From: a virus
IMG/VR virus record: IMGVR_UViG_3300009412_000013
Location: 1-35,363 of that record
Length of the DNA stretch: 35,363 nucleotides
Reading direction: 5' to 3' (one strand)
Made by a program: the position numbers and the translations under genes
The notes under the pieces: generated by a model
What the model was told of the DNA's origin: nothing
Database searches by the model: none
Seen by the model: the letters and a program-made list of their open reading frames with translations, nothing else
In this document: piece after piece, positions 2,397-30,081 of the stretch
Numbering within the stretch: position 1 is the first letter of the stretch
How the letters are laid out: every line of letters begins with the position of its first letter

Positions 2397-3371
2397 TCAG
2401 ACGTGAATAGCGTCCATATGATTGACCAGCCCCCGCTCTCTCCCTCTGGCCATGGATCGGTCGATGACCTCCATCTCGATAAAGGCCTCGGTTCCAGAGG
2501 ACCACTCGTTCAGCCATAGGCGTCTGAACTCACCCTCACGTCCTTGTACAGACGGGTCTGTGCGAGCCTCTTCGAGCTTTTCAGGGGTTTGCCACGGCAT
2601 CCTCAGTTCATGGTCCCAGTAGACAATGGTCTTGCCGTTATCGCTTAGATAGACGGGAAGATCCTCCAGCCCCGGAACCCTCTGTCCCATCGCCTCGTTT
2701 GTGTGAGGATCTGGCTTGACGGAGTTCTCGTAGATCCTCCAGAGAAGGGCTGATTCGCCGTAGAACCCAGCGTACGTCGTCACGAACCGGATGGACGCCT
2801 CCAGGTTCCAGATAGGCTGGAACTCCGTCCAGAGACGCTCTCCGCGCTCTGACGAGATCCCCCAAAGCTCATCGAACACACACAGGGCGTTCATACTGCC
2901 CGCCTCACCAGCATAGTCCGAGGCAACATACCTCAAGCTGTGTGGGCCGAAGTTCTTCTGCTTGCCTTGGGCGAACAGGATCGTGTTGGAGAGAGCGATC
3001 CTCTCCCTGCGCCTCTTGTCGGCTGGCATGACCTCGTCGAAGGTCTTTGGGTCCTTGCTTCTCATCAGAGAAAGGGACTGGACCATCCGATCGTACATGC
3101 GGTTCTTCGCACCCTCTTCGTCGTTGGCAATGGAATACATCTCCCCGCCGTAGATCCGAGCGAATGCGTAGGTGACCGCTGCTGCTACCTCTGTCTTGCC
3201 TGATTTTTTGGGAGCGCTGTAGACCATCGTTGAGTAGGCGAGCTTGCCGTCCTCAATACGAAACATCTCGTTGAGAATGCGCTTCTGGTGGGGGAACAGC
3301 TTGATGCGCTTACCGGTGGAGGTAAGCCAGAACTCTTTCTCCATGGTCGTGACGACCTTGGAGTTGATCAC
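2397..3371 (-). CDS. Terminase large subunit, ATPase half (split TerL)
   Basis: A 324-residue protein covering only the N-terminal DNA-translocating ATPase of TerL. Walker A is SAPKKSGKT at 52-60, Walker B with catalytic acid is CVFDE at 164-168, and the coupling segment is VTTYAGF near 197. The protein stops in the linker, just after the usual LNEWSSGTEAFIEME stretch, with no RNase H-fold nuclease domain; intact TerL proteins are usually 450-600 residues. The missing nuclease is encoded separately at 29491-30081. The GTG start at 3371 overlaps the stop of the upstream gene (GTGA) with GAAGG nearby; an ATG at 3344 is an alternative. It is the last gene of the minus-strand operon. Confidence 0.9.
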   Translation of the reverse strand: MINSKVVTTMEKEFWLTSTGKRIKLFPHQKRILNEMFRIEDGKLAYSTMVYSAPKKSGKTEVAAAVTYAFARIYGGEMYSIANDEEGAKNRMYDRMVQSLSLMRSKDPKTFDEVMPADKRRRERIALSNTILFAQGKQKNFGPHSLRYVASDYAGEAGSMNALCVFDELWGISSERGERLWTEFQPIWNLEASIRFVTTYAGFYGESALLWRIYENSVKPDPHTNEAMGQRVPGLEDLPVYLSDNGKTIVYWDHELRMPWQTPEKLEEARTDPSVQGREGEFRRLWLNEWSSGTEAFIEMEVIDRSMARGRERGLVNHMDAIHV

Positions 3372-5443
3372 CTAATGCCTTCGGAAATCGAAGTTGCGTC
3401 TCCTGGTTCATCTTCATTCAATGTCGCTATAGTTTCCCTTGGGGCGCGGATCACCTGTCCAACCACAGGTGTTTTCGCCAAGGGCTTAAAGCCCCCGTTG
3501 GCGACCTTGATGTTGTGCTCCTCAGCGAGACGCTGGGCAGCTTGGAAGTAGGTCATCCCCGCCGTATCCCACCCCTTGGGGACCTTGCTGTGGATCTTAT
3601 TCAGAAGGTTCATAAAAACATCCTTCTGCCTAGACGTAAACCCCATAACGGGGATGATCCCCGCGCCCACTGCCTTTGGAGACACCAGAGGTGCTTGCAG
3701 CGCGAGCCAGAGGGGGTTCCACCCAAACTTATCCATCAAGGCCCCCCCCGTCACGAGGCCGAGGAGACCCGCAAGCTCGCTTCGGGAAATGAGTCCAGAC
3801 CCAACCCAGTTGTTGAACATAGCACCAGCGGCAGCGGGAAGAATGGGAACTCCCGTGGCTTCCGATAGCTGTTCGATGATTATCTTTGCACCTTGGTTGG
3901 CGGGGTCATCCTTCAAGGATCTGAGCAGGTTGCGGATTACGGAAACCCTTTCTCGACCCAACTGCTCCGGACCCATTTGCCTTGCCATCACACCAGTGGA
4001 GGCCTTAAAGTCGCCAATGAGTTTGCTGGTTTTTTCCCACTCGCCGAGCATGTCATCATAGCCACCCTTGATATTATCTACCAGCACATCGCGGATTCTA
4101 CCATACGCCCGCTCGACCATCTTCCGGCCCACAAGGTCGCGCTCTAACTTGCGAGAGACCTGCCATGTCGCCTTCCTGAGAGCATCAAAGGACGCTACGT
4201 CCAACACTCCGTTTCTGTTGTAGTATTCTGCGGGGTCCTCGATTACACTCAACCACTTCTTAACGAGTCCTATCTCTTCGTCAGCAAATATGCCGATGCG
4301 AGTGAAGTTGGCGCTGTTGAGGTCGGCCCCGTCGTCGTTGAAGTCCTCAAGAACATCCTTAACAGCAACCTTGATTCGCTTGTGAATACTGCTAGGATCG
4401 CGACGTAGACTCATAGTTGGAAAGAGCTTTTTCCAACTATTCGACCTGTCCTGCTGCACCTTACGCAGTGCCTCTGAAGCCATCGAGTGGAAGTTCAACA
4501 GGGAGTTGTGTCCGTTCACGTAATTGTAGAACGCCTCCCTTGTTTTAATGTCGGCAGACCGAACCGCTTTGTACGCCTCTGAGATGGCTTCGGGACCTCT
4601 TCCCGTCATAAGGCCCGTATATTCCCTGAAAAACCCCGAAGAAATATCCTTGGCTCCCTTTCCAAGACGCCCCCCTGCCCTCAGGGACATGATGGCAGGA
4701 TTTACCGCATTTATCAAGGATGACCACCTCGGCAGGGCTGCGGGAGTGGGAATCAGACCTGACGCCATGAGCATGTTGCCGCCAGGGTTGTTGATCCACT
4801 CTTCGGGATCAAGGAGCTTGTCCTGCATGTCCGTCATCATGGCAGATGCCATCTGCTCGGTTCCAGACCTCACGGGCCGGTTGTAACGAGCGGTGTTCTC
4901 CCACACACCACTGGTGCTCTCTGCGCTTGGAGCGAAAGAGAACTCAGGACCACCTGTCTGTCCTATGGCTCGGCCAAGAATCGAGTCGTCCCGCGTCCCA
5001 AGATTACGCACCACAGACCTGCCCATACCCTCGGCAGCACCCTTCATGCCCTCCCACGTTTCTCCAATCTTAGACGGACGAAGAGCGTCGTAGGTACTGA
5101 CGGCTTGGTCAATCAGAGAGCCCGGAAGTCGAAGAGCACCCTCTTGGATTCCAAGACTAATCTGCCCCATAAGGGGCTGGCGGGGGCGCATGGCAGCGAG
5201 ATCGTCGGCGATCCCACCAAATCCAGACATGCGAGTGAACCTGTTGCCAGCCGTGTCCCTGAACCCGCCCGCAATCTGCTCACCACGAGCGTCGTCTTTG
5301 ACGTTAATCCAGTAGTTAGGATTCTCTTCCAGAAAGTCGGTGGCCGCTTCGATGGCGGTCATACTGCCGTACTTTTCTGGGTCTCTTCGCTGTGCGTATG
5401 CGCCTATCTGAGATAGGGTGAACTTGATATTTTCAGGCATCAT
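3368..5443 (-). CDS. Large internal virion protein (candidate ejection protein)
   Basis: A 691-residue, mostly helical protein with Gly/Ala-rich hydrophobic stretches (about 235-265 and 555-620) near the middle and C-terminus. No enzyme motif was identified; in particular no lysozyme or transglycosylase catalytic set is obvious. The size, helical nature and position as the last of four large genes before the terminase ATPase fit the internal core or ejection proteins of podoviruses (the T7 gp15/gp16 role). The ATG at 5443 overlaps the previous stop. Function is inferred from context. Confidence 0.7.
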   Translation of the reverse strand: MMPENIKFTLSQIGAYAQRRDPEKYGSMTAIEAATDFLEENPNYWINVKDDARGEQIAGGFRDTAGNRFTRMSGFGGIADDLAAMRPRQPLMGQISLGIQEGALRLPGSLIDQAVSTYDALRPSKIGETWEGMKGAAEGMGRSVVRNLGTRDDSILGRAIGQTGGPEFSFAPSAESTSGVWENTARYNRPVRSGTEQMASAMMTDMQDKLLDPEEWINNPGGNMLMASGLIPTPAALPRWSSLINAVNPAIMSLRAGGRLGKGAKDISSGFFREYTGLMTGRGPEAISEAYKAVRSADIKTREAFYNYVNGHNSLLNFHSMASEALRKVQQDRSNSWKKLFPTMSLRRDPSSIHKRIKVAVKDVLEDFNDDGADLNSANFTRIGIFADEEIGLVKKWLSVIEDPAEYYNRNGVLDVASFDALRKATWQVSRKLERDLVGRKMVERAYGRIRDVLVDNIKGGYDDMLGEWEKTSKLIGDFKASTGVMARQMGPEQLGRERVSVIRNLLRSLKDDPANQGAKIIIEQLSEATGVPILPAAAGAMFNNWVGSGLISRSELAGLLGLVTGGALMDKFGWNPLWLALQAPLVSPKAVGAGIIPVMGFTSRQKDVFMNLLNKIHSKVPKGWDTAGMTYFQAAQRLAEEHNIKVANGGFKPLAKTPVVGQVIRAPRETIATLNEDEPGDATSISEGIR

Positions 5444-7062
5444 CCATCACCAGTCGTGTCAGCGGGCGCAGTGGCGCGTGTCGAAGTACCAGGAAATGCC
5501 CCCTCAAAGACTGAATCCATTAGTGCATCCTCCTGTGAGGAGGCCCCTTCCAGCCCCTGAAGGAGGCCCGCCGAACCGCCACCAGTCGTGTCAGCGGGCG
5601 CAGTGACGGTTGGTGTCCTCTTCGGAACACCAAATGGCACATTGCCCGTGCGTTCTTGTACTTCCGTCAGAATGTGCTCCATACCATACTGGCCTACATA
5701 GCTCGCCTCTACGATGCCTTCCTCCATGCGAATCATAGTCTGCATGAGGTCTTTCATATTCTGCCGTATGATCGCGGGGTCCGTTGAGATGCTACCGATG
5801 AGTCCTGAGTAGAAGATCACTTCATCTTCTGTGAGCGCAGCGCCTGACTGCAACCTCGATACAAGGTCCACCTCAATCTTCATCTCGTTTAACGTGGAGA
5901 TGATTTGCATTGCCTTCTCGCCACCGGCCTCAACGTCGTCGTCACCCAGCACCCATGGAGTCAGTTTTTCTCCCGGTGGAGTGTCAACCCAGTTTAACAA
6001 TCTCCTGTTAAACTCCATCTCTAAGCCTGCCAGACCACCGAATGCCTTTGCTATGTCTGGATCGGACATCTTTGCTAGAGAACTTGCGAGTGTGAACTTA
6101 ATGGCGTTGATGCGCCCCATGCGCGTCTGGTTTTCGCCTGAAATGTCAAGTCGTAGATCAGTAGCCTCCATCCTCTCCCAAACAACCAACGCCTCTTCTG
6201 GGGTCCTCCAGCCACCATGCTTCCGATTGATCTCCTCATTAAGGGTCTTCCACACAGGAAATGCCGTTTCTTTATCATCGGCAGCGGCCTTTATGGCGGC
6301 TGTAATCGCAGCCTCTCGTGCTTTTCGCCTCTCCGACAGGGTGCCAGCGGCATAATCTTCAAAAAGTTCCCGTGCTTTTTCCATAAGTTCGGGAGTTACG
6401 TAGTTGCCCATGGACACGACGTAATGCGTCATAGCTGCTTCCGCGCCAATGTCCATTGCGGTCTTCGCAAGCATCTTAGTCGTGGTATTGTGTCTGTCTT
6501 GAACAAACTTCTTCGACATGGATGAAATCATATCATCTACTGGCTTCTGCACAGACGGTGGATCTACTTGGGGCTCTTTAGGGGCGGGTGGCGCGGACAC
6601 GTCCAAGGTGAACTCGTCTTCTCCAAAACGCCTTTCTGGCTCTGAAATTAGACTTGGCGGGGGGGTCGCCATTATCTCGGCCACCGTTTTCTCCACTGTT
6701 TCCTCCCCCCACCGATCCAGCGTAAACTCGTTGAACCGAGCCGAAAGAGCGTTGTGCTGATTCCACTGCTCCCGAAGCATCTCCGGATCTGCCCCGGCCT
6801 CAAGATACATCTCAAGACCTTGCCGAGACTCTTGTACTTGGCTCAAGAGAAGCTCGTACTCCCCTTGTTGGGCGGACCTCGCAGCGTCTTCTTCGAGGCG
6901 GGCCTGCTCCCTCTCCCGCAAAGCATGAGTAGCGTCAAACTCCTCCTGCTGCTGGGCCAGACGAGCCTGTTCCGCCCTCCGTTGAGGCCAATTACGGGAA
7001 CCACGGGCGATCCCTGCGGAAGCGTCCCTGAGTCCTCTGGCTAATGCGCGACCAATTCCCAT
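5440..7062 (-). CDS. Internal virion protein with N-terminal coiled coil
   Basis: A 540-residue protein. Residues about 15-70 form a strongly charged, Gln/Glu/Arg-rich coiled coil (RRAEQARLAQQQEEFDA). A Pro-rich spacer near 130-170 precedes a helical body. The C-terminus carries two copies of the peptide APADTTGGG or APADTTGDG separated by about 35 residues, encoded by a 26-base direct repeat. It is probably part of the ejected internal core together with its neighbours. The stop overlaps the next ATG. No catalytic motif was seen. Confidence 0.7.
   Translation of the reverse strand: MGIGRALARGLRDASAGIARGSRNWPQRRAEQARLAQQQEEFDATHALREREQARLEEDAARSAQQGEYELLLSQVQESRQGLEMYLEAGADPEMLREQWNQHNALSARFNEFTLDRWGEETVEKTVAEIMATPPPSLISEPERRFGEDEFTLDVSAPPAPKEPQVDPPSVQKPVDDMISSMSKKFVQDRHNTTTKMLAKTAMDIGAEAAMTHYVVSMGNYVTPELMEKARELFEDYAAGTLSERRKAREAAITAAIKAAADDKETAFPVWKTLNEEINRKHGGWRTPEEALVVWERMEATDLRLDISGENQTRMGRINAIKFTLASSLAKMSDPDIAKAFGGLAGLEMEFNRRLLNWVDTPPGEKLTPWVLGDDDVEAGGEKAMQIISTLNEMKIEVDLVSRLQSGAALTEDEVIFYSGLIGSISTDPAIIRQNMKDLMQTMIRMEEGIVEASYVGQYGMEHILTEVQERTGNVPFGVPKRTPTVTAPADTTGGGSAGLLQGLEGASSQEDALMDSVFEGAFPGTSTRATAPADTTGDG
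5448..5605. repeat. 26-base direct repeat at the 3' end of an internal virion protein gene
   Basis: A 26-base sequence occurs at 5448-5473 and again at 5580-5605 in the same orientation. It encodes the repeated C-terminal peptide APADTTG. The upstream copy is followed by a Gly/Ser-rich linker, so this looks like an internal duplication of the protein tail. Confidence 0.85.
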
Positions 7063-8313: not shown

Positions 8314-8317
8314 ATTT

Positions 8318-10066
8318 TTACATCCTCGGTATGTATGTTCCCTGACGGTTCATCGCATCTCTACCCATGGACATGGTGAGAATCTTCGCGTAGAGCCCCT
8401 TAGGCAGAGCACCAATCCATTCCGCCATCATAGTACTGGCCCTGGCGGCGTCACCGACTCGAAGATTGACGCCTCCACTAGTTGGCCGAATCACACCAAA
8501 CTCGGAGAAGCTAAACCCCTCGGGCATAGAAATTCTCTCCGACCGAATGGCTTCGAGAATCTCTGGATCATTCAGATATCTCAAATGTGCCAAGCCACGA
8601 TCGCCATGGATGTCAATGAAGTCTGTGAGCCATTCCTGCTGTGGGCGGGCAGTGCTGGTCCTTGGACCAAAGACTCTTTCTGCTCCTATAACAGCATTCA
8701 GATAGTCCTCCATTCCAGTAGCCGCGGGAGTCATAGATGCCATCATTGTTCGGAAGTCATCCATGCTTTCACCCTCGTCCCTAAATTCTCCCATGCGCCC
8801 CATAGCACGGATGTAGTCAGAGAAGTCCACAGGTGGTTCTTCCTCGAACTCTCTCATACCCTCCATAGCACGAACATAGGGAGAGAAGTCCACGTCCTCC
8901 TCCGTACGTGAGGTCAGACTAGGATCAAGTCCCATCCCACTAATAAACTCATAGGGATTAGGACCATCATCATCGAACTCTCTCATACCCCGCATAGTAC
9001 GTATGTAATCAGAGAAGTCCACGTCCTCCTCCGTACGTGAGGTCAGACTAGGATCAAGTCCCATCCCACTAATAAGCTCATAGGGATTAGGACCATCATC
9101 ATCGAACTCTCTCATGCCCCGCATAGCACGGATGTAATCAGAGAAGTCCACGCCCTCATAATCATCAAACTCCCTCACGTTCTGCATAGCACGGATATAA
9201 GCAGACCAATCATCATCCGTACGTGAGGTCAAATTAGGATTCAAACCCATAAAACCAATTTGTTCGTAGGGATTTTCATCCTCAAACTGCCCCATGCGCT
9301 CCATAGCACGGATGTAATCAGAGAAGTCCACGCCCTCATAATCATCAAACTGCTCCATGCGCTGCATGGCACGGATGTAATCAGACCAATCATCATCCGT
9401 ACGTGAGGTCAAATTAGGATTCAAACCCATCCCACTAATAAACTCATAGGGATTAGTTTCCTCCTCGAACACCCCCATGCCCCGCATAGCACGGATGTAC
9501 TCAGATAAGTCCACATCTCCATAATCCTCTTCGATCTTTGTCAGGGCAGGATTCCACCCCATAAGTCCAATCTGGGTGTACGGATTAACATCCAAAGCTG
9601 CTCCACCAGGACCTTCCAAACGTCTCCATGCATCCCAATCTACCCCACCCCAATCTGTCCCACCACTGGGAGCAGCACCGGCTCCCACGTCAGGCTGAGA
9701 AGGAGTGGGGTAATCGGCACCAAAGGTCTGTACATCCCGCATGGCACCGAAGGGATTGAAGGGGCGAGCTTGGATTCTGCCTCTGGATCGCCCTTCAACG
9801 TCTTGAGCTCTGCCCATGATCATGTTGAGGGCATCGACGCGGGGGCCGTAGAGATTGCCAAGAGCGTCTTCGCGGGGGCCGTAGAGAGCAAGCTCCCGCT
9901 CCCGAGCCTCACGTTCAAGCTCGGCACGATCCCCCGAAATGTCGAACATGCGATTCTGCGCTTCGGAGTATCCCCCGCCGTCATTATCGAACAGGGACGC
10001 TACGAACGACGCTATCCAAGGGACATATTTAAGACCTTCCTTGATCGCAGTTGCTTCAGTTGGCAT
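8318..10066 (-). CDS. Tandem-repeat internal virion protein
   Basis: A 582-residue protein with three parts. Residues 1-130 include a hydrophobic segment (YVPWIASFVASLF) and charged helices. Residues about 150-420 are a tandem repeat region. Residues 430-582 form a non-repeated C-terminal domain. The full repeat unit is 43 residues: DFSDYIRAMRGMREF, an acidic linker, NPYEFISGMGLDP, then SLTSRT. The YIRAM half occurs eight times and the NPY half five times, so some units are half-length. Two neighbouring units are nearly identical, suggesting recent expansion. The same two motifs occur in the product at 23201-23734. Probably a virion protein; the function of the repeats is unknown. Confidence 0.75.
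   Translation of the reverse strand: MPTEATAIKEGLKYVPWIASFVASLFDNDGGGYSEAQNRMFDISGDRAELEREARERELALYGPREDALGNLYGPRVDALNMIMGRAQDVEGRSRGRIQARPFNPFGAMRDVQTFGADYPTPSQPDVGAGAAPSGGTDWGGVDWDAWRRLEGPGGAALDVNPYTQIGLMGWNPALTKIEEDYGDVDLSEYIRAMRGMGVFEEETNPYEFISGMGLNPNLTSRTDDDWSDYIRAMQRMEQFDDYEGVDFSDYIRAMERMGQFEDENPYEQIGFMGLNPNLTSRTDDDWSAYIRAMQNVREFDDYEGVDFSDYIRAMRGMREFDDDGPNPYELISGMGLDPSLTSRTEEDVDFSDYIRTMRGMREFDDDGPNPYEFISGMGLDPSLTSRTEEDVDFSPYVRAMEGMREFEEEPPVDFSDYIRAMGRMGEFRDEGESMDDFRTMMASMTPAATGMEDYLNAVIGAERVFGPRTSTARPQQEWLTDFIDIHGDRGLAHLRYLNDPEILEAIRSERISMPEGFSFSEFGVIRPTSGGVNLRVGDAARASTMMAEWIGALPKGLYAKILTMSMGRDAMNRQGTYIPRM
8795..9590. repeat. Tandem coding repeat, 129-base unit and half-units
   Basis: Eight copies of a roughly 32-base block (core CATAGCACGGATGTAATCAG) start near 8795, 8862, 8992, 9120, 9183, 9300, 9364 and 9483. 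Copies starting near 8882 and 9011 are almost identical over the full 129-base unit, which equals 43 codons. The period and reading frame are kept throughout, so selection acts on the protein. Confidence 0.85.
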
Positions 10067-18776: not shown

Positions 18777-19682
18777 CTACGCCTGACCAGAACAGAAGAA
18801 ACCCTTCGGATCAGTCCAACCCGAGGACTGGGCGAACATCAGAGTCACCTTGTAGTCCTTGGTATCGAAATCGTACTCGTAGTCCGTCCACGGCTCTTCT
18901 CTGGTATACAGAGTCAAACCATGGTCCTGCTTGTCGGACAGTACAAACCAACGATCCGTGTCGGTCAGGTAGTTCCACACGACCGGCTGGACAATACCCT
19001 TCACAGGGTTGACCGCGTTCGTGTTGTCATCCGGCGTCTGGCTCGACTGGAGCAGACGGTCGGCGTTGAAGCGCTCTTCCTTGGGAACGACCACGTACTG
19101 CGGCTGAATCTGAAGCCGCTTGCCGCCGCCGTCACGGAAGTCGGAGAAGTCGATCAGAGCCTGTTCCAGAGAGGTCTGGCTAAGATCAGCAGCCGAGGAC
19201 AACTCGTTTGAATAGGTCTCACCGTTCTCGCGCACATGAGCCGCTGACGACAGTTCTACGCCGTCTGCTCCAGCATAACTGGAGTTTGCTGCCCTGTTGA
19301 AGTGGTTCGCCAAGAGGGTCTCTTCTGAGGCGTCAGCCGACAGAGAGAGTTCCGTGGCGAGGTCTTCCATAAGACCATACAACTCGTCCCGGTACATACG
19401 TCGAGTGACTCGGAAGCCATTCGCGTAGTCCAGGTGAGTGAAGGTCTCAAGAAAACCCTCGTTGTTCGACAGGTAGGAGATCTGCTCGCCTTCGGCGACC
19501 TGCTGCATCACGCCTACTCCGCCAGCGGTCAGAGAGTGTTCGCGGTACTGGCTTGACTCTTTGACGTTGAAAAGCGTACGACCAACGCTGGGACGCTGAC
19601 GCCATTTGTGGAAAATGACGGTGTCGATCCCGCGAAGCGTTGTCGCGTTTGTCCAGTTGGCAGTCTGTTCAATTCCAGCCAT
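18777..19682 (-). CDS. Major capsid protein
   Basis: A 301-residue protein with features of HK97-fold capsid proteins of the group with a long spine helix: residues about 95-130 (RRMYRDELYGLMEDLATELSLSADASEE) and the late segment QYVVVPKEERFNADRLLQSSQTP, followed by NPVKGIVQPVVWNYLTDTDRWFVLSDK, characteristic of phage major head proteins. Its position after the scaffold and decoration genes agrees. The start ATG 19682 follows the decoration-protein stop by 3 bases. The stop is TAG, followed by a strong hairpin. Confidence 0.85.
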   Translation of the reverse strand: MAGIEQTANWTNATTLRGIDTVIFHKWRQRPSVGRTLFNVKESSQYREHSLTAGGVGVMQQVAEGEQISYLSNNEGFLETFTHLDYANGFRVTRRMYRDELYGLMEDLATELSLSADASEETLLANHFNRAANSSYAGADGVELSSAAHVRENGETYSNELSSAADLSQTSLEQALIDFSDFRDGGGKRLQIQPQYVVVPKEERFNADRLLQSSQTPDDNTNAVNPVKGIVQPVVWNYLTDTDRWFVLSDKQDHGLTLYTREEPWTDYEYDFDTKDYKVTLMFAQSSGWTDPKGFFCSGQA

Positions 19683-22101: not shown

Positions 22102-22292
22102 GTTGCGTTCTCCGCGTTAGACTTCATCGCTTGAAAGGCCGTAAGCCAATCAGCGTGGGTGAAGTTGCCGTGCTTTACGACAACCGGGGGTATTACATCC
22201 ATGTTCACGATCAGCCACTTATCCCCACTGAGGATGTTGCGGGAAATCGCGTTTTGCACGTTTTGCGGAACCTGATCAATAGCGCTCGTCAT
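22098..22292 (-). CDS. Hypothetical 64-residue protein
   Basis: A small protein with a helical N-terminus (DQVPQNVQNAISRNI) and a beta segment (KWLIVNMDVIPPVVVKHG). The start ATGACG follows a duplicated junction sequence shared with the tagged gene at 22345-22932, which places this gene at the edge of an inserted cassette. The stop overlaps the next ATG. Function unknown. Confidence 0.6.
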   Translation of the reverse strand: MTSAIDQVPQNVQNAISRNILSGDKWLIVNMDVIPPVVVKHGNFTHADWLTAFQAMKSNAENAT

Positions 22293-22341
22293 GGCCCGTC
22301 TTCGTCCGTGCGTTGGCTGGTAGCTCGGCTACGGCAGTCAT
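22276..22341 (-). pseudogene. Relic of the 3' end of the 96-residue gene (21 codons)
   Basis: After the stop of the tagged gene at 22345, a 21-codon frame beginning MTAVAELP carries the last codons of the 96-residue gene's 3' end (the NART-type segment), now read in another frame. There is no ribosome-binding site. I interpret it as the left-over junction copy created when the tagged gene was inserted, not as a functional gene. Confidence 0.45.
22286..22316. repeat. 31-base direct repeat, copy 1 (partner at 22926-22956)
   Basis: This 31-base sequence recurs 640 bases away at 22926-22956 with one mismatch. Each copy contains a stop/start junction (GGGCCATGAC on the minus strand). The two copies bracket the gene at 22345-22932 almost exactly. 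Confidence 0.85.
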
Positions 22342-22344
22342 GAT

Positions 22345-22932
22345 TTATCGCATATCAGTATAGAAATCATCTGATATATCTGGTCCACCCTCTCTTGGTG
22401 TAGGCCCCTTGGTTCGATTCGGCAAGTCTCTTCGACTTGTTTGCCTTGCCGCGAATCTGGATAGAGCCTTGATCAGGCTTTTCACGTCCTGAAGATTTGC
22501 TCCCGAGGAAATGAGTCCATTTGCTATCTCGCCTATTTCCTGTCCATTTACAGCCGACCCCAACCTCTCAACACTTCTTTCTGCAAAGTGCCTATGGAGA
22601 ACTGGTCTACCTTCTTTGAAGGTGATCGGATAGGATTCCTTGGACTGCCTAAGGAAGTCGTCAATGAACTGCATTGCTCTTTTTGATCCAGCACCAGTGC
22701 CAATCTTTATTCCGCTCTTAATCGACCCCCCCACATCGAAAGGCATCTCATCACCTCTGAATAGTCTCTCCATGTACGGAAGGTCTTCGAGAGACATTAG
22801 ACTGGCAGGCATTGGGGGTGTGGGTCGGGTGTCCTGGCTCGGCATTCCAATGGGACCTTGAGACGTACCCGTAGACATAGCAGACGCAATCGCTTGCAGC
22901 ATCTGTGGATCTATGTTGGGCATCATCGTCAT
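22345..22932 (-). CDS. Tagged accessory protein A1 (conserved N-terminal tag, unique C-terminus)
   Basis: A 195-residue protein. Residues 1-67 form a tag shared with the gene at 26860-27495: MTMMPNIDPQ, a short helix ending AMSTG, a Pro-rich spacer, then LMSLEDLPYMERLFRGDEM and PFDV. After the tag the two proteins have nothing visible in common; here residues 75-175 are helical with a basic patch (RPVLHRHFAERSVERLG). The gene lies between the portal and the scaffold. The tag may target proteins to the procapsid or portal, while the C-terminal parts do different jobs; this is inference. Start overlaps the upstream stop (ATGA). Confidence 0.65.
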   Translation of the reverse strand: MTMMPNIDPQMLQAIASAMSTGTSQGPIGMPSQDTRPTPPMPASLMSLEDLPYMERLFRGDEMPFDVGGSIKSGIKIGTGAGSKRAMQFIDDFLRQSKESYPITFKEGRPVLHRHFAERSVERLGSAVNGQEIGEIANGLISSGANLQDVKSLIKALSRFAARQTSRRDLPNRTKGPTPREGGPDISDDFYTDMR

Positions 22933-22956
22933 GGCCCATCTTCGTCCGTGCGTTGG
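22926..22956. repeat. 31-base direct repeat, copy 2 (partner at 22286-22316)
   Basis: Second copy of the junction repeat. It holds the last nine codons of the 96-residue gene and the first bases of the tagged gene, with a single A/G difference from the other copy. Confidence 0.85.
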
Positions 22957-23219
22957 TCCGTGTGGAAGTCCTCCAATGCATTCTCTCGGTAATTCCCCAA
23001 TCTCGCCTGAACTCGCCTGATCCCTTCCAGCACTCCAGCCTGGAAGTTGACCTTCTCAAGGTCTTTCCCTCTGGCGTCTCCGGTGAGGATCACGGTTTCC
23101 TTGCGAATCATCTCATCAATGACTTGAGACACGTCAGAAAAGGCCGGGTTTGTTACCAGATCTCTTCTGCTCCGCACGTCCACCCAAGCGGTTCCGTTCA
23201 TCAGCGACGACGCCTCCAT
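22929..23219 (-). CDS. Hypothetical 96-residue protein
   Basis: A mostly helical small protein (VSQVIDEMIRKETVILTGDA, then EKVNFQAGVLEGIRRVQARLG) with an acidic C-terminus. Proteins of this kind beside the portal are sometimes head-assembly accessory proteins. It overlaps the end of tagged gene B1 by 19 bases and its stop overlaps the ATG of A1. An 18-base sequence in its 5' part (23162-23179) recurs at 23233-23250 inside the end of B1, a further sign of local duplication. Confidence 0.6.
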   Translation of the reverse strand: MEASSLMNGTAWVDVRSRRDLVTNPAFSDVSQVIDEMIRKETVILTGDARGKDLEKVNFQAGVLEGIRRVQARLGNYRENALEDFHTDQRTDEDGP

Positions 23220-23734
23220 CTTTTCGATGGTGCTCTTCTGCTCCGCACGTAAGAATATGGGGCCAGGTCTGGTGGATATGGGGCTAGGTCTGGCTCGAAC
23301 TCTCTCATGCCCTGCATACCTCTTATATAAGCAGGGAAGTCACGCTCCGAACCCTGACTAAATCCTGGGTCGCTATAGGGATTGCGGCCCCGAGGCGGCG
23401 TGCGCTGACTAAATCCTGGCTGACTATTATCCCTATAGCCAGTTTCCACAGCCGGATACTTGAAACCGTACTGACTATAGGGATTGCCGCGCCGTGGATC
23501 CTCATTGACGCGCCCGAACGCCTGCATCTCAGGAGGCACCCTTCGTTGACCGTTACCGCCCATAGTCGCACTCATTATCGCTTCCAACATGGCCAGCATT
23601 TCTGGGTCGGCATTTGCAATTGGATCTTGCAGGAGTGGGGTTCTTCCAAGGGCTCCCATATTCGGCCCTGCGTTCTGACTATAGGCAGGGTTGCGGTTTT
23701 GACCATATGGGTTCATATACTCGGGTCTAGGCAT
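23201..23734 (-). CDS. Tagged accessory protein B1 with NPY and YIR motifs
   Basis: A 177-residue, Pro/Arg/Gln/Tyr-rich protein. It starts MPRPEYMNPYGQ and shares LLQDPI-ANADPE-AMLE-IM-TMG with its neighbour B2. The middle repeats NPYSQYGF and NPYSDPGFSQG. It then carries FPAYIRGMQGMREFE, the same motif as the repeats of the 582-residue virion protein, and DLAPYPPDLAPY. The last 12 residues are strongly basic (RWRRRR), where the frame overlaps the next gene. AAGGAG precedes ATG 23734. It is probably a largely unstructured virion or assembly protein that shares partners with the repeat protein. Confidence 0.6.
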   Translation of the reverse strand: MPRPEYMNPYGQNRNPAYSQNAGPNMGALGRTPLLQDPIANADPEMLAMLEAIMSATMGGNGQRRVPPEMQAFGRVNEDPRRGNPYSQYGFKYPAVETGYRDNSQPGFSQRTPPRGRNPYSDPGFSQGSERDFPAYIRGMQGMREFEPDLAPYPPDLAPYSYVRSRRAPSKRWRRRR

Positions 23735-23763
23735 GTCGTACTCCTTGGTTGTGGTCTCTTTTG

Positions 23764-23799
23764 CTACGTACGTCCACCCGTGTAGTTCCGTTCAATCAT
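23764..23799 (-). other. Tiny ORF (11 codons) overlapping the B2 stop
   Basis: ATGA at the B2 stop opens the frame MIERNYTGGRT, ending in TAG 29 bases before the B1 start. There is no separate ribosome-binding site; translation would be by coupling from B2. It could be a bridge or leader peptide, or a relic. It is not in frame with B1. Confidence 0.35.
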
Positions 23800-24461
23800 T
23801 GATTATCCCAATAGCTCCCCATCTGATCGGCACCTTTGTCATAGAAATTGCTCCGTTGCCTTGGGGGAGGTAAGGGCGAGTCAATCATCCCATACCGGTC
23901 ATTTCGTAGCAGTCGTAAAGCTGCCTCTGCAATCTCGGGTGAGATATCTAGATTCTGATTGGCGTAGATACCGGAACGAGCTGCAAATCTCAGCTCATCG
24001 ACACTATACCTCTGAGCAGCATCTAGAGCCTTTGAGTCGAAGTAAGGCTGGAGGTCGGGGGCGAGGGATGGTCCGAAGCGTCCGAATTGGGAAACTCCAG
24101 AGGGGGTCTGATATTCACTTGGCCTGTTTGCGCGTTCAGGATTCCATCCCGTTGACATTATGTCGTTCATATAGTGGAAATCCGCTCCCGTCTGCGGCCC
24201 CATCAGACCACGTGGCAAAAGGGCTTCGGTATCACGTATTGGCGTAGCCGACTTTCCTGCTGGACGCGGTCGCGTCGGACCCTGACTAAATCCTGGGTCA
24301 CTATAGGGATTGCGGCCCCCCCTGCCCATAGTCTTGGCCATTATCTGCTCCAGCATGGCTATCGCTTCTGGATCGGCATTATTAATGGGATCTTGCAAGA
24401 GAGGAAGGCGTGGCCTTCGACTTGATTGACCGTATGGGTTGTAATACTCGGGTCTAGGCAT
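23796..24461 (-). CDS. Tagged accessory protein B2 with NPY motifs
   Basis: A 221-residue protein. The N-terminal tag (MPRPEYYNPYGQ, then LLQDPINNADPE, AMLEQIM-KTMG) and a NPYSDPGFSQG motif at about 51-61 are shared with B1. The remainder differs: a helical region about 140-190 (ALDAAQRYSVDELRFAARSG and ISPEIAEAALRLL) and a polar C-terminus. AAGGGATAC lies before ATG 24461, and the leader sequence resembles that of B1 over about 25 bases. B1 and B2 look like a tandem duplication with replaced C-termini. Confidence 0.6.
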   Translation of the reverse strand: MPRPEYYNPYGQSSRRPRLPLLQDPINNADPEAIAMLEQIMAKTMGRGGRNPYSDPGFSQGPTRPRPAGKSATPIRDTEALLPRGLMGPQTGADFHYMNDIMSTGWNPERANRPSEYQTPSGVSQFGRFGPSLAPDLQPYFDSKALDAAQRYSVDELRFAARSGIYANQNLDISPEIAEAALRLLRNDRYGMIDSPLPPPRQRSNFYDKGADQMGSYWDNQ

Positions 24462-24482
24462 TTTGTATCCCTTGACTGTGGT

Positions 24483-24512
24483 CTACCATGCTGTGTTCGA
24501 CATCATCGTCAT
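24483..24512 (-). pseudogene. Relic A-type start (MTMMSNTAW, then TAG) at the portal stop
   Basis: ATGACGATGATG overlaps the portal stop exactly as at the start of tagged gene A1, but after nine codons it meets TAG. The first five codons match the A-type tag start MTMMPN. The frame would continue through the amber into B2 in phase. Most likely it is the left-over head of a deleted A-type gene; a leader peptide is possible. Confidence 0.5.
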
Positions 24513-26863
24513 ACCGGAGACCCCGGTTGCGGCCCGCCTGCGGCCCCATTAGCGCTAGGAACGGCTGGAGATGCGTTGACATCGCCCATACCGCCCTGCT
24601 GCTCAACTCCTTGTAGTGAGGCCACATTACGTGCGTTGGGCTGCTGCTGTTGACCAGGTTGTCCTTGCTGCTGGTTTTGTGCTGCTATGAGCCTTTGCTG
24701 TTCAGCCATCTGCTGCTTGCGCTGTATCGCGGATTGAGTGGCCTGAATGTGGCTCATGTGGCCTTGGATATTGGGCCTGCCCAAGGCGAGGTATTGAGAC
24801 GAATTGACGTGTTCCATGTGGAACCTGAGATGCTCGGCGTCGTTGTCGTTGGGATGAACGGGAGCAGCGGTCCCGGTGCCATACAGCATCTGATCCATCT
24901 CGCCATTCTCTTCGCTGGCGTCCTTCTGGGGAGCAACCCCCGTGGCCGACTTGGGTCCGATAAAGCGGTGTGGATCGGGAATCCCGCCAGACTCGATGAT
25001 GAAGCTCTCCGCTTCCCACCGTCTGCCCAGATCCTGATTCATAAAGGGACTGACCTGCAACAGCCCCTGTAGAACCTGCGCCTGCTGCTGCTTGAGCATG
25101 GTCGAATACATGCCATGGTTGGACCCGAGGCTGAAGTCATACTCACCTCTGAACCAGAGTTGATCCCTAGTCAACTTCTGGGTCAAGGGACCCTCTCGGC
25201 CTTGCAGGCGCATTATCCTCTCATCTGGACCGAACTGAATCTCAGACTCGTATACGAGATGGCAGAGGCTGGAAAACTCGGTTGCGTCCCCGGAGATGAC
25301 CTCGGAGGTTCGAGCAAGAGCCTCCTGCTGTGTACCCACAAAGCCCGTGGCATGACGGGCCGCAGCCCCACGGGTGGGGGACACGCCCAAAAAGAGGTCA
25401 GTAACCCCGAGGACGCGTTCCACCAGCGAATACAGGAGTTGCTCTTCCTGGTAGTAGAACGAGGTGACGCTTTGTAGTTGGGGAAACTGAACATCCCTCA
25501 CGTCATCGACAGGAATACCCTTGCCGGGGCGTAAAGTGATTCGTTCGGGCTGTATAGTGGAGGTGGCTCGGTAGAAGAAGAACGGCATGTTGGTGGCGAA
25601 TCCAACGTCGATTCGCATGTTGTGGATCGTATCAAGCTCGGCTGAAAGGTGCTGGACGATCTCACAAATCCCCATCGAGTCGCGACGAGTGCCGATGGTC
25701 TGGAAATTCAACTCAACGAGGGGTCTCTTGTTCTTCCACTGGATGTCGGACAGGCGGAAGGCTCCAAGGATCTTCTCGGGATTGGTCATAAAGAAGAAAA
25801 CGCACTCAGCCTCTTCCTCTTCGCCTGCCTCGTTCTCCAGAACCCAAGGCATGAACCATGTGAGGATCTCAAACTCTGGATTCTGCCTTGCAGAAGGATG
25901 TCGCTTGTGGCTGGCCTGACTGCGGTTCTTGCCGGTGACGTGATCCTCAAGCCTGACCCGTTCCTGTGATCCAGACGAACCAGATTCCGAACGGTCTTGA
26001 GAGGGGGCAAGATCGACCCACTTCTCGCGCTCCTTGAGGTTTTCGTCTTCATCTATATAGGGGTAGGACAGATTGCGCTTTTTCCAGATCAGACTGAGAG
26101 GCTCCCACTGGCGTATACCACAGTAATCAGCACCAAGGGGATTGGCTGGAGTCACAGGCTGGAGGTTAATCCCGTCCAGAGGGTCTATCACGTCATCCCA
26201 TGCCACGGGAATCAATAATGGCCCGTTCATCCTCGTCGCCCTCTTCAGAACCGGCTTAAACTCTTCCTCGATCGCATCGCCGTTCTCGTCTTCGAGGATC
26301 TCATCGGCCTCGTTGCGCTTAAACTCCCTCTCGCCTCGGACTCGGTAGGTGTATTCGTCCTTCACCCAAGGAACAATCCCCACGCCTCGTCCGTGAATAC
26401 AGCGGGACTTGGAAATACGGCTCCAAGCGCTCCGTGCGTTCATCCGCTTGGCCTCAAAATGCCATTGAACGAGACCAGCGGCGTTTTTTGCCACCTCGTC
26501 GTCCGCGTCTTCTTGGGGTTTGCCTATTACAAGGGGGGCCTGATCAAAAACACCCGACACGAGCCGAGTATTGTAGGCGTCACACAGCCAGTAGGGCATC
26601 TGTACGTGAAGATTTGAGGAATTTGGCCATGGACCTTGTCGATTTGCGTCCATAGTGCCACGGAACATCAAATCATAGTCCAAATGACGCTTGCTCCACG
26701 ACTGACGTGCCTGTATGCCTTCGCGGATAAGGGTGCTGATCGTATCTGCGATCTCTTTCCGCTCGTCCTCGTCCAATTTCAAAGGTTCAGGATCGGGAAA
26801 ACGTGGAGCTTCCCCCGGAGGACCGTCTATGCCGCTCAGGGCGTCAATAATGAGTTCAGTCAT
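24509..26863 (-). CDS. Portal protein
   Basis: A 784-residue protein matching large podovirus-type portals. Recognisable parts are DLMFRGTMDANRQGPWPNSSNLHVQ near residues 63-88, the stem and wing segments CIHGRGVGIVPW and VAWDDVIDPLDGINLQPV, the long-helix region LSAELDTIHNMRIDVGFATNMPFF, and YQEEQLLYSLVERVLGVTDLFLG followed by GAAARHATGF. The last 100 residues are a Gln-rich coiled or disordered tail (EQQRLIAAQNQQQGQPGQQQQ). It forms the dodecameric DNA channel and packaging-motor dock. ATG 26863 overlaps the stop of A2. Confidence 0.88.
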   Translation of the reverse strand: MTELIIDALSGIDGPPGEAPRFPDPEPLKLDEDERKEIADTISTLIREGIQARQSWSKRHLDYDLMFRGTMDANRQGPWPNSSNLHVQMPYWLCDAYNTRLVSGVFDQAPLVIGKPQEDADDEVAKNAAGLVQWHFEAKRMNARSAWSRISKSRCIHGRGVGIVPWVKDEYTYRVRGEREFKRNEADEILEDENGDAIEEEFKPVLKRATRMNGPLLIPVAWDDVIDPLDGINLQPVTPANPLGADYCGIRQWEPLSLIWKKRNLSYPYIDEDENLKEREKWVDLAPSQDRSESGSSGSQERVRLEDHVTGKNRSQASHKRHPSARQNPEFEILTWFMPWVLENEAGEEEEAECVFFFMTNPEKILGAFRLSDIQWKNKRPLVELNFQTIGTRRDSMGICEIVQHLSAELDTIHNMRIDVGFATNMPFFFYRATSTIQPERITLRPGKGIPVDDVRDVQFPQLQSVTSFYYQEEQLLYSLVERVLGVTDLFLGVSPTRGAAARHATGFVGTQQEALARTSEVISGDATEFSSLCHLVYESEIQFGPDERIMRLQGREGPLTQKLTRDQLWFRGEYDFSLGSNHGMYSTMLKQQQAQVLQGLLQVSPFMNQDLGRRWEAESFIIESGGIPDPHRFIGPKSATGVAPQKDASEENGEMDQMLYGTGTAAPVHPNDNDAEHLRFHMEHVNSSQYLALGRPNIQGHMSHIQATQSAIQRKQQMAEQQRLIAAQNQQQGQPGQQQQPNARNVASLQGVEQQGGMGDVNASPAVPSANGAAGGPQPGSPV

Positions 26864-27495
26864 AGACCAATCCCGCCCATAACAAGGTCTACAGCCTTTT
26901 TCAAGACTTGATAATCAGCCTCTGCGGCAATGGTAAAACTAGGAGGAACAGAAAGGTTAAAGTCTAACTTCCCTGGCTTATAGTACATCTTCAACGCTCT
27001 CAACTGATCCATGGTCAAACCAAGGGGCTTGATCACATCCACTAGTCCCTTAATCTCATCTGCCTCTGAGATCATCGACGTAAAAGTAAACCCCTCGGGC
27101 GAGGTTTCGGCGAGAGCGTCATAGTCGTCAATTGCCTGGACGGCTTTTTCTAAGCTCTTGGGAACATCTTTCTCAAGGCGTCCGGAAGATTTTCCCGCCT
27201 TGAGGACAGATTCAAGGCTGGGTTTAGACAAGGCCGACATATTTGCCCTCGGCAACATTCTGCCGACGTATTTGCTCGTAATACCTGCCGGTACATCAAA
27301 CGGCATCTCCTCGCCACGGAACAACCGCTCCGTGTACGGAAGGTCTTCCGGAGACATCAGTTGCGCCTGAGATGACGGAGGTCCAGGCGCAGGCGGCGGG
27401 GTGGGCATACGAGAGGGGCCTGTTCCCGCTCCAGTTGACATGGCCGTTGCTATCATCCGCAGAAGCTGCGGATCAACATTAGGCATCATAGTCAT
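26860..27495 (-). CDS. Tagged accessory protein A2 (conserved N-terminal tag, unique C-terminus)
   Basis: A 211-residue protein upstream of the portal. Residues 1-68 repeat the A-type tag: MTMMPNVDPQ, AMSTG, Pro-rich spacer, LMSPEDLPYTERLFRGEEM, PFDV. The C-terminal region (about 70-211) is unrelated to A1 and is helical with KAVQAIDDYDALAE and a closing ADYQVLKKAVDLVMGG. The stop overlaps the portal ATG, so it should be made in step with the portal. No enzymatic motif is seen. A common partner for A1 and A2, such as portal or scaffold, is inferred. Confidence 0.65.
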   Translation of the reverse strand: MTMMPNVDPQLLRMIATAMSTGAGTGPSRMPTPPPAPGPPSSQAQLMSPEDLPYTERLFRGEEMPFDVPAGITSKYVGRMLPRANMSALSKPSLESVLKAGKSSGRLEKDVPKSLEKAVQAIDDYDALAETSPEGFTFTSMISEADEIKGLVDVIKPLGLTMDQLRALKMYYKPGKLDFNLSVPPSFTIAAEADYQVLKKAVDLVMGGIGL

Positions 27496-27498
27496 AGA

Positions 27499-27553
27499 AA
27501 TTCCACGACATATAGAGGCTCACTGCCGCAAACCTACAATATACCGTGGAATT
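27499..27553. promoter_or_regulatory. Inverted repeat in the GroES-A2 gap
   Basis: AATTCCACG at 27499-27507 and CGTGGAATT at 27545-27553 form a perfect 9-base inverted repeat with a 37-base spacer, filling the 72-base gap between the GroES gene and A2. It could be an RNA stem or a regulator site. No convincing promoter is seen. Confidence 0.35.
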
Positions 27554-27559
27554 AGGCAA

Positions 27560-27571
27560 CTACATTGTCAT
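27560..27571 (-). other. Relic start (ATG ACA ATG TAG) at the GroES stop
   Basis: The GroES stop overlaps an ATG that reads MTM and then TAG. It resembles the first three codons of the A-type genes. It is not in frame with A2. Probably a vestigial or decoy start like the one at 24483-24512. Confidence 0.3.
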
Positions 27572-27879
27572 TCTACACGGGCGAGGATGTCTTTCTCCCT
27601 GACTACGAGGTAGGTGAGCCCACCAGCCTCGATCTCGGTCCCGGCATGTCTGTTTATGAGCACAGTATCACCCACAGACACGTCCATGGGATCTCGCTCT
27701 CCAGGCTTGCCTCCGATGGGTTCTCCCGGCCCAACAGCCATGACCTCGGCAGCATCGCCAATCTCCTGGGCGTTATCGGGTATGATAATGCCCCCTGCGG
27801 TTGTTTCGCTCTCCGTGTCCATTCTCCTGAGAAGGACCCTATCTGCGGTAGGGGTCAGGTCTTCAATCTGCGAAGCCAT
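27568..27879 (-). CDS. groES: Co-chaperonin GroES (Cpn10)
   Basis: A 103-residue GroES-family protein covering the whole fold: LTPTADRVLLRRMDTESETT at the first strand and mobile loop, AGGIIIPDNAQ, then AEVMAVGPGEP, VSVGDTVLINRHAGTEIE and the closing YLVVREKDILARVE. The mobile loop GGIIIP segment needed for GroEL contact is present. The start MASQIE at 27879 has AAAGG upstream and is preferred to 27960, which would add an unrelated N-terminus. Phage-encoded co-chaperonins such as T4 gp31 redirect host GroEL to fold the capsid protein; its place in the head operon fits this. Confidence 0.92.
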   Translation of the reverse strand: MASQIEDLTPTADRVLLRRMDTESETTAGGIIIPDNAQEIGDAAEVMAVGPGEPIGGKPGERDPMDVSVGDTVLINRHAGTEIEAGGLTYLVVREKDILARVE

Positions 27880-28193
27880 GCTTTGCCTTTCTGTAGTAGA
27901 GTAAGCTCGACGGGGTCGAGTAAGTCGTTGCGTATGAGATAGTCCACAACCTGTTGCCACACGCCTGCGTTATGAAGCGCAGCCCTTGCGGATTCGGACT
28001 TCTCCTTGGTCCAGTCTTCGGCCTGGTCTCCGACGATCTGTTCAGGGAGGCTATATAATAGAAGGGTGAGCCTCCAGTTCCTGGCGAACTCGGGATCTGC
28101 CTTCCAGTCGGTCTCGTTCTTTTCCTGCCAGTTCTCCAGTGCGGCTTCTGAGCCGGACCAGTCGAGGGTGTTATACAGATCAGCGAGGGTCAT
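27855..28193 (-). CDS. Hypothetical helical protein
   Basis: A 112-residue protein that is Trp/Glu/Leu-rich and helical (ALENWQEKNETDWKADPEF, then EKSESARAALHNAGVWQQVVDYLI). It overlaps the GroES start by 25 bases and follows the 260-residue gene by 15 bases. I do not recognise a family. Confidence 0.65.
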   Translation of the reverse strand: MTLADLYNTLDWSGSEAALENWQEKNETDWKADPEFARNWRLTLLLYSLPEQIVGDQAEDWTKEKSESARAALHNAGVWQQVVDYLIRNDLLDPVELTLLQKGKAWLRRLKT

Positions 28194-28208
28194 GCGACGA
28201 AACCCATA

Positions 28209-28991
28209 TCAATACCCCGTGATGGTGTTGCCGACACCCTTCTCCAGATGCTCTTCTGAATCGTGACTCACTCGAACAGAAGTAGATCCGAGACCTTTGA
28301 CTGCATTCCAAAGAGCCAGCGATCCAGCAAGATTACCAGTACGTACAGACTGTAGGGTTCTAAGCATAGGCATGTCGTCCAAAAACAATAACTTCGGGAT
28401 CGCATCGCCATCGTTGCCTCGCATGGAGTTCTGTGTCTTGGGGTCTACAGCCTCGGCTTGAAGCATGTCGTTGACTTCGGAAGTAAGAGTTTCCTTCGAG
28501 GGGATCTCTCTTAGCGTCACGCCCGGTACAAGATCGAAGTCGGTAAAGCTGGGCCACCGTTGACGTGCAACCTGGTCTATGTGGGGCTCGGGATAGAACG
28601 TCAGTCCGTCAGTCCGGCGTAGTGTCTCTGAAAGGGACCCAGGCTGAGTGGGAGCGAAGATGTGCGAGACGCGGTACTTGTCTTTGAGTTCGATCGACTG
28701 ACGAAAGACATCTGCGGTGACGGTGGTGTCGATGATCTCATCAAGGATAACGAAGACGGACTCGACCCGATCTTCAAACTCGAACCACCTCTCGCCCACG
28801 ACACAGACGAACATCGGCTCGAAGCACATCCCCATGACAATCCTTCTGAAAGGAAGTTCGAGCTTCCTGTTCTTCGGCAGGGGAGTGCCGTGCATCTCGT
28901 GCGCCATCTCATCCACAGGCGCAACCTGGGTGGTGAGCCACATCACCGACACGCCTTTAGACGTGGGGTAGGTGGCGAGATGGTCGTTCAC
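28209..28991 (-). CDS. Hypothetical protein (260 residues)
   Basis: A mixed alpha/beta protein with a central hydrophobic strand ESVFVILDEIIDTTVTADVF (about 77-96) followed by KYRVSHIFAPTQPGSL, suggesting a Rossmann or RNase H-like core, but no catalytic set can be assigned. Its GTG start at 28991 overlaps the methyltransferase stop, and its first codons lie in the 19-base junction repeat. Before the methyltransferase gene entered, it probably followed the terminase nuclease gene directly. Function unknown; a packaging or head-gene-cluster role is possible. Confidence 0.6.
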   Translation of the reverse strand: MNDHLATYPTSKGVSVMWLTTQVAPVDEMAHEMHGTPLPKNRKLELPFRRIVMGMCFEPMFVCVVGERWFEFEDRVESVFVILDEIIDTTVTADVFRQSIELKDKYRVSHIFAPTQPGSLSETLRRTDGLTFYPEPHIDQVARQRWPSFTDFDLVPGVTLREIPSKETLTSEVNDMLQAEAVDPKTQNSMRGNDGDAIPKLLFLDDMPMLRTLQSVRTGNLAGSLALWNAVKGLGSTSVRVSHDSEEHLEKGVGNTITGY

Positions 28992-29000
28992 GCCGCGAAC
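28982..29000. repeat. 19-base junction repeat, copy 1
   Basis: GGTCGTTCACGCCGCGAAC, identical to 29485-29503. In minus-strand sense it encodes the last residues FAA, the stop and the first codons VND. It marks the 3' boundary of the methyltransferase gene. Confidence 0.9.
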
Positions 29001-29494
29001 TTTCTTTCCACTGATATAAAGTAAGGACGGATCTCTCCGAATGGATTAACTACGTAGAGACTTTCAACCTCCATACCCCTACCCTTACCAAAGTTAGATA
29101 TCTCATGCCCCAATCCTACGATTTTCCCACCGGGGTTCAGGCACTGGACGATGGAGTCTTTCATCTTGGTATACTTCCCCACCCTTCTGCCCTCGTAAAA
29201 CTCCTTGGACTTGCGCTCGTTAAAGGGAGGGTCATACACCATGCAGTCCCACTTATCGTTTCCGGCGTCCTTGAGAAAGCCCATAGCGTCACCGCAGTGG
29301 TCTGGCTCAAACTCATCAGAGAGGTCAACGCGAAACTCGTCTTCCACGTCGAGCCTGTGCTTCCCTGCGAAGAGGTTTAGAACCTCTGAGTTGAACTCTC
29401 GACATTCTTCCTCCACGACAGCCTTCACTTTGGCCTCTTGGAAGGTGTATTTATATAGCCCCCCCTCAATGTAGAACAGGTTTGGGTCGTTCAC
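28988..29494 (-). CDS. DNA methyltransferase (N6-adenine or N4-cytosine type)
   Basis: A 168-residue protein with SAM-binding motif I as VLNLFAGKHRL at 38-48 and catalytic motif IV as DPPF at 88-91, the arrangement of N6-adenine/N4-cytosine amino-methyltransferases. It is short for the class, and no separate target-recognition domain is obvious. The GTG at 29494 overlaps the terminase-nuclease stop (GTGA); a longer upstream start at 29593 would overlap that gene and is rejected. No partner restriction nuclease is nearby, so it is probably solitary: protection from host restriction or marking of DNA for packaging. Exact 19-base repeats flank it. Confidence 0.8.
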   Translation of the reverse strand: MNDPNLFYIEGGLYKYTFQEAKVKAVVEEECREFNSEVLNLFAGKHRLDVEDEFRVDLSDEFEPDHCGDAMGFLKDAGNDKWDCMVYDPPFNERKSKEFYEGRRVGKYTKMKDSIVQCLNPGGKIVGLGHEISNFGKGRGMEVESLYVVNPFGEIRPYFISVERKFAA

Positions 29495-29503
29495 GCCGCG
29501 AAC
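29485..29503. repeat. 19-base junction repeat, copy 2
   Basis: Identical to 28982-29000. It covers the terminase-nuclease stop and the methyltransferase start, so the methyltransferase gene sits exactly between two copies of one gene junction, offset 503 bases. Confidence 0.9.
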
Positions 29504-30081
29504 CCCTCCATAACAAACGGACTGCGTACATGCTTGGACGAGGACCACGCTGGATACGTGCCGTGTCCGTGTTCCTGGTTGGCACCAAAGCACGTCATGG
29601 ATAAAGCCACGGGATAGTCAACGGGCTTGGTGGGGTTCTGCTTGACGATTCTGTAGCCTCGATCAGATCGTCTGGCCGAGGTCCATGAGAAGTAGGCTCT
29701 TGTCTCTTCTGACTCGATCAGATCAAGTCTATCCTCAACCAGCAGGTCGTGAAGAGTGTTGGCCGCACCGATCATCTGCGCCCCGGCCTGACCTACCTCA
29801 ACGAGTTGGTACCCGTAGCCCCTGGCCTTCAGCCTCTGAATCAGGGTGATTGCCTGAAAGGGGTCGTACCACAACCCCGCTACACGGAAGTTGGTGAAGA
29901 TGTGATCCATAAACGGCTGGACCTGTGTCACCAGATTCACCGGAGGAGCCCAGACCTTATAGCCCCACTCGATGTAGGTCTCAAACTCATCGTCAGGCGT
30001 GATGGCAGTGAGCGCACAGGTATCTCGCTTGGTGGCTACATCCAGCCCCAGATAGAGCACAGGATCAAGTTTGTCGTTCAT
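29491..30081 (-). CDS. Terminase large subunit, nuclease half (split TerL)
   Basis: A 196-residue protein equal to the C-terminal RNase H-fold nuclease of TerL. The first strand YLGLDVATKRDTCALTAI carries D14, the second acidic site is D72 in LWYDPFQA, and the third is D154 in KPVDYPVALSM; these form the two-metal cleavage centre that cuts concatemers. The ATG at 30081 has GAGGA upstream, so it is an independent gene, not a fragment. The ATPase half lies at 2397-3371. The two products would have to associate on the portal. The gene occupies the usual terL position near the start of the head operon. Confidence 0.88.
   Translation of the reverse strand: MNDKLDPVLYLGLDVATKRDTCALTAITPDDEFETYIEWGYKVWAPPVNLVTQVQPFMDHIFTNFRVAGLWYDPFQAITLIQRLKARGYGYQLVEVGQAGAQMIGAANTLHDLLVEDRLDLIESEETRAYFSWTSARRSDRGYRIVKQNPTKPVDYPVALSMTCFGANQEHGHGTYPAWSSSKHVRSPFVMEGFAA

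Follow-up and report, generated by a model that had tools for sequence, protein, structure and literature searches.

The terminase genes of the window

The sequence analysed here, referred to as the window, is an entire IMG/VR virus record (IMGVR_UViG_3300009412_000013), a linear contig of 35,363 bases with no end repeats. Two separate genes were identified on it that each encode one half of a large terminase subunit (TerL), one the ATPase domain and the other the RNase H-like nuclease domain (Table 1). The ATPase half was found to possess, in order, a Q motif, a Walker A motif (SAPKKSGKT), a Walker B motif with its DE pair (CVFDE), a coupling motif (TTYAG), a lid and a short tail ending in the linker. 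Its open reading frame (ORF), motifs and phrog_9 match confirm the ATPase-only product described in an earlier annotation made without database searches (the sequence-only reading). The nuclease half matched PF20441 (TerL nuclease) above the Pfam threshold. The nuclease-only product of that reading was upheld in its fold and in residue D14, with the two further acidic residues, given as D72 and D154, corrected by one position to D73 and D155.

The halves are complementary when compared with complete terminases. On the phrog_9 (TerL) profile the ATPase covers positions 196-330 and 421-470 and the nuclease positions 481-670, and alignment with three one-chain TerLs using hhalign placed them at columns 26-296 and 310-497, respectively, with no overlap. 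Their summed length of 520 residues equals that of a one-chain TerL, and the break between them falls at the inter-domain linker. As had been proposed, each gene possesses its own start codon and an upstream Shine-Dalgarno-like sequence (AGGA/AAGG), and each start overlaps the end of the preceding gene, namely EVGA for the nuclease and the gene of a 691-residue protein for the ATPase.

A relative, IMGVR_UViG_3300028925_010766 (38,115 bp; G001), also carries both halves as separate genes, with amino acid identities to the window of 82% (ATPase) and 70% (nuclease). The ratios of non-synonymous to synonymous substitution rates between the two genomes (0.12 and 0.10 for the two halves) indicate purifying selection on both. 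The map of G001 is that of the window, circularly permuted: the two run collinearly, with approximately 6.5 kb present in G001 alone and a tail region present in the window alone. From this comparison, the window's genome is inferred to be circularly permuted and about 42 kb in size, with approximately 6-7 kb probably missing from the contig. A search of the pooled map of window and G001 with phrog_9 did not find a second TerL. The nuclease region of the window recurs in contigs G002 and G003 at >99.98%. An inverted copy of window positions 31097-31266 (171 bp, 95%) stands at the end of G002 and resembles a fold-back produced during assembly.

Occurrence of the split among related phages

The clade to which the window belongs was delimited with aligned portal and capsid sequences as bait, among them those of the distant annotated relative MW202601. 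Related portals were found at 80 loci (22-100% identity) and related capsid proteins at 61. Iterated ATPase and nuclease profiles, run over all six-frame ORFs, recovered nuclease-only ORFs upstream of the portal as well as ATPase-only ORFs in this portal clade of uncultured phages, and no fused TerL within it. After removal of duplicates, 31 distinct full nuclease-only and 17 distinct ATPase-only sequences remained (an eighteenth ATPase row, L231, is cut by the contig end and was excluded from the second tree). The same profiles recovered one-chain TerLs in dozens of contigs outside the clade (L210-L244 from IMG/VR and L245-L259 from GTDB genomes), and the method therefore detects a fusion where one is present. 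The comparison of relatives suggested by the sequence-only reading thus gave a clade that is split throughout, with one-chain TerLs outside it. The reading frame ahead of the nuclease domain is limited to 58 codons or fewer, which cannot accommodate an ATPase, in every nuclease sequence except that of G031; there it extends over 168 codons, and these gave no match to an ATPase. The split is clade-wide and predates the lineage of the window.

Contig G019 possesses a 123-bp direct end repeat, on account of which it is probably a closed circle. It carries each half once, and beyond these it has no match to phrog_9 or phrog_2. An assembly error, a contig chimera or a decayed terL with an intact copy overlooked would also yield two halves on one contig, and the linear state of the window, its lack of end repeats and its probable missing part would allow for this. 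However, the part missing from the window is present in G001 without a TerL, both genes are under purifying selection, and the arrangement recurs in many independent contigs, a circular one included, which refutes such an error at the level of the clade and leaves it with a negligible probability. Two of the findings named beforehand as fatal to the split were not obtained: misassembly is excluded by these contigs, and no second complete terL was found in the window, G001 or circular G019.

Among genome contigs, a portal-based scan confirmed no members of the clade. An ATPase-based scan of genome contigs recovered relatives that are one-chain where complete, with L260 and L261 broken or partial. 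Direct comparison of the window halves with isolate phages using tblastn gave no matches.

Origin and co-inheritance of the two halves

All 17 split rows of the ATPase tree group in a single clade (support 100/99; 200 of 200 bootstrap trees) beside one-chain TerLs. The 23 split rows of the nuclease tree likewise form one clade beside one-chain TerLs, with support of 93 in the Shimodaira-Hasegawa-like approximate likelihood ratio test (SH-aLRT). Both halves are therefore of common descent with one-chain TerLs. The root of both trees was not inferred by the tree method; a single ancient gene fission is likely, being the simplest history these sequences suggest, and the reverse history of many fusions is unlikely because one-chain forms are widely spread. 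Distances between ATPases and between nucleases across 14 genomes were found to agree (Spearman rho 0.62; reached in 0 of 5000 permutations), indicating that the halves have been inherited together.

Conservation of the catalytic residues

Residues D14, D20, D73, D155 and K147 are invariant across 21 aligned nucleases, which are 32-70% identical to that of the window. The nuclease profile aligns to HK97 TerL (6z6d; E=8.5e-4), whose catalytic residues are D302, D388 and D471 with K463 as the active-site lysine (PMC9410871). These correspond to D14, D73, D155 and K147 of the window, and the spacing from K147 to D155 equals that from K463 to D471. The separately encoded nuclease apparently is catalytically intact and is predicted to be active. 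Six aligned split ATPases have PKKSGKT, the DE pair of Walker B and TYAG in common.

The break point and the flanking tails

In the nearest one-chain relatives, 9-22 residues lie between the lid (ENRWV...E.FI..EWWD) and the first strand of the nuclease. Split ATPases end in a short tail of 9-30 residues past the matched domain, with a recurring G...GL.N.M pattern, and split nucleases usually start 4-10 residues ahead of their first strand. A recurring H.RS...LP tail, absent from one-chain forms, ends the split nuclease. In D6E TerL, the C-terminal arm is located close to the ATPase site, with possible contact to the portal (PMC5727402); by analogy, the ATPase tail or the nuclease tail of the split proteins could be a candidate docking element.

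Long insertions were identified within the ATPase domain of the one-chain relatives L229 (4531-7131) and L234 (1895-4552), and also L235 (5740-7833). Those of L229 and L234 are probably inteins, as suggested by LAGLIDADG matches there. Their presence in relatives is what could favour a split intein or trans-splicing that rejoins the halves into one working chain. These insertions, however, sit within the ATPase domain and not at the linker, and the ATPase tails and, in most members, the nuclease heads are too short to be intein halves. No remnant of an intein or of trans-splicing was seen at the break in the tails and heads of split members, and the window halves gave no Pfam intein match. Rejoining of the halves is accordingly very improbable, and the earlier view that the break is no intein scar holds.

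Gene arrangements and conserved neighbours

Split contigs show three arrangements of the ATPase relative to the nuclease. In the first, the ATPase lies far from the nuclease (window, G001, G006, G009, G012, G013, G019, G027 and G031); G012 ends short of the nuclease and was placed here as its portal and ATPase are 19 kb apart. The second has the order ATPase-EVGA-nuclease, the halves being 0.8-2.5 kb apart (L049, L052, L057, L199, L202, L203, L204, L205 and L208); the EVGA gene was checked in all of these except L203. The third has the order nuclease-P260-ATPase, with 2.2 kb between the halves (G020 and G029). Measured around the circle (about 42 kb), the ATPase is 26 kb downstream of the nuclease if one follows the late operon and 14-16 kb upstream of it if one crosses the early region. 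The description of the halves as 26 kb apart and in reversed order is correct for the linear contig, but depends in part on the point at which the circle was cut open and represents one of three arrangements. The position of the nuclease at the start of the late operon of the window and of the ATPase at its far end is real.

The conserved setting in the clade is EVGA-nuclease-P260-P112-portal. No convincing matches were found for EVGA and P260 in PDB, for P260 in Pfam or for all three proteins in PHROGs; they are candidates for the small terminase subunit (TerS) or for adaptors. P260 was also considered as a second TerL-like nuclease and rejected, as hhalign against the nuclease and against one-chain TerL gave no match.

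Table 1. Features of the window
Feature	Position	Strand	Remarks
TerL ATPase half, 324 aa, GTG start	2397..3371	-	phrog_9, hhalign
691-aa protein	3368..5443	-	directly upstream of ATPase gene; adjacency common to G001, G006, G027
Repeated-motif genes	8318-10066, 22286-24484	-	
Major capsid protein	18777..19682	-	Mu gpT-like
Portal protein, 784 aa	24509..26863	-	bait for clade
GroES co-chaperonin	27568-27960	-	Pfam Cpn10, E=4.6e-23
P112, 112-aa conserved protein	27855..28193	-	usually upstream of and near portal
P260, 260-aa conserved protein	28209..28991	-	downstream of nuclease in all members with sequence there
DNA methyltransferase-like gene	28988-29593	-	phrog_11619, E=4.5e-21
TerL nuclease half, 196 aa, ATG start	29491..30081	-	RNase H-like; PF20441, phrog_9
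EVGA, small conserved gene	30065..30442	-	upstream of nuclease in nearly all clade members
AAA/MoxR three-gene set	32030-35126	+	

In the window, L013 and L044, the methyltransferase-like gene separates the nuclease from P260. It is absent there in G001, and the overlap at the downstream end of the nuclease gene is therefore not conserved. The phage-encoded GroES gene precedes the portal in several clade members and the nuclease in others. Elsewhere on the window, a three-gene set encodes an AAA/MoxR-like ATPase, a weakly DUF3150-like protein and a DUF2201 metallopeptidase/VWA protein, and is present also in G001 and L013. Several adjacent genes in two further regions have repeated peptide motifs (e.g. 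DFSDYIRAM, NPYSDPGFSQ) and common start segments (MTMMPN.DPQ, MPRPEY.NPYGQ), with matching DNA repeats.

Interpretation of the split terminase

Of the features of an HK97-type TerL, the clade possesses the ATPase with Walker A, Walker B and its catalytic glutamate, coupling motif and lid, as well as the RNase H-like nuclease with three acidic catalytic residues; what it lacks is the joining of both domains in one linked polypeptide. The reading favoured here, with a probability of about 0.8, is that, in the ancestor of the clade, an HK97-type TerL was split once at the inter-domain linker, with both halves retained and working as the packaging motor. Most likely, the ATPase protein would form the packaging ring at the portal and translocate DNA. 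The separate nuclease subunit would be recruited to the ring, the portal or TerS through protein contact, where it would make the initiating and terminating cuts. It is probable, though with less confidence than the favoured reading, that this amounts to a translocating ring without a covalent nuclease, in which cutting falls to a dissociable, separately encoded and regulated subunit, and that it has been stable across the clade since one ancient fission. Such an arrangement may relax the control of cutting or add to it, as the sequence-only reading suggested. Either evolved contacts may stand in for the linker or the ATPase may translocate alone. The view of an ATPase ring is supported by the isolated ATPase domain of D6E, which is an active and faster ATPase (PMC5727402), and by T4 nuclease mutants, which still package linear DNA (PMC3012670).

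Three points weigh against this reading. T4 gp17 cut at the linker retains both activities but loses translocation (PMC3012670), and assembly in trans would therefore need further contacts here. No TerS was identified. Finally, AlphaFold models of the halves, built from two-sequence alignments, had predicted local distance difference test (pLDDT) values of 36-38 and no predicted interface.

Alternatively, the ATPase could be the whole motor and the nuclease a free endonuclease that never joins it, acting for example on concatemers or host DNA, with the packaging cut timed otherwise. The loose gene order between the halves would suit this, as would the long stem branch of the nuclease (1.14, against 0.32-0.35 for the ATPase) and its C-terminal tail, unlike those of one-chain TerLs. 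Yet its catalytic residues are invariant and match those of HK97 TerL including K463, its gene lies within the packaging block upstream of the portal, and the halves are co-inherited, leaving a free endonuclease unlikely.

Comparison with known systems

A natural split TerL was not found in the open-access literature, most subscription papers being outside that search. Papers pairing 'two separate genes' with terminase concern lysis genes or a capsid and protease, not TerL. A split was also looked for in isolate phages of Arthrobacter, Microbacterium and Streptococcus with half-length TerL matches and in KLEA5, the only isolate phage with a match to the nuclease; the seven isolate phages inspected (including Trustiboi) possess one-chain TerL genes of approximately 490-630 residues. 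Among the families that PHROGs labels 'terminase large subunit', two are short, phrog_4914 with 213 positions and phrog_2699 with 315. In SEA-PHAGES annotation, some terminases have been named as an 'ATPase domain' and a 'nuclease domain' separately. Two TerL-related genes have been reported in Arthrobacter cluster AT phages (PMC5513430).

TerL is regarded as a single chain with two domains. A review of jumbo phages calls an associated C-terminal nuclease domain universal in tailed phages (PMC7824862). Models of the motor differ in that the nuclease domain pulls DNA together with the ATPase in T4, while the ATPase and lid perform the work in Sf6 (PMC5727402). A clade in which the linker is naturally cut allows a test of covalent linkage and of the timing of cutting. 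Such genomes may be missed or mis-scored where annotation and phage taxonomy depend on a full-length TerL.

Caudoviricetes sp. ct7ZZ929 (MW202601) resembles the clade in genome layout, GroES and an M15 peptidase, with distant homology in the portal (24%) and the capsid protein (29%), but differs in possessing a one-chain TerL of the phrog_2 family directly before the portal. The nearest TerLs in both trees are those of one-chain relatives (L210-L230, L245-L259; IMG/VR, GTDB), mostly of about 480-640 residues, with some longer owing to probable inteins. The gp16 of phi29 illustrates that translocation is possible without an active nuclease in the motor; its single chain still includes a vestigial C-terminal domain, and the DNA that it packages is of unit length, whereas the clade retains a separate and apparently active nuclease with invariant catalytic residues and is thus not of the phi29 type, in which the nuclease domain is dead or absent. 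The artificially cut gp17 of T4 has the same cut point and the same two products as the clade, where, by contrast, the split is natural and conserved. HK97 TerL (PDB 6z6d; phrog_9; PF20441) possesses the same ATPase and RNase H-like nuclease domains with the same catalytic residues, joined by a short linker in one chain, where the clade has two genes and two proteins.
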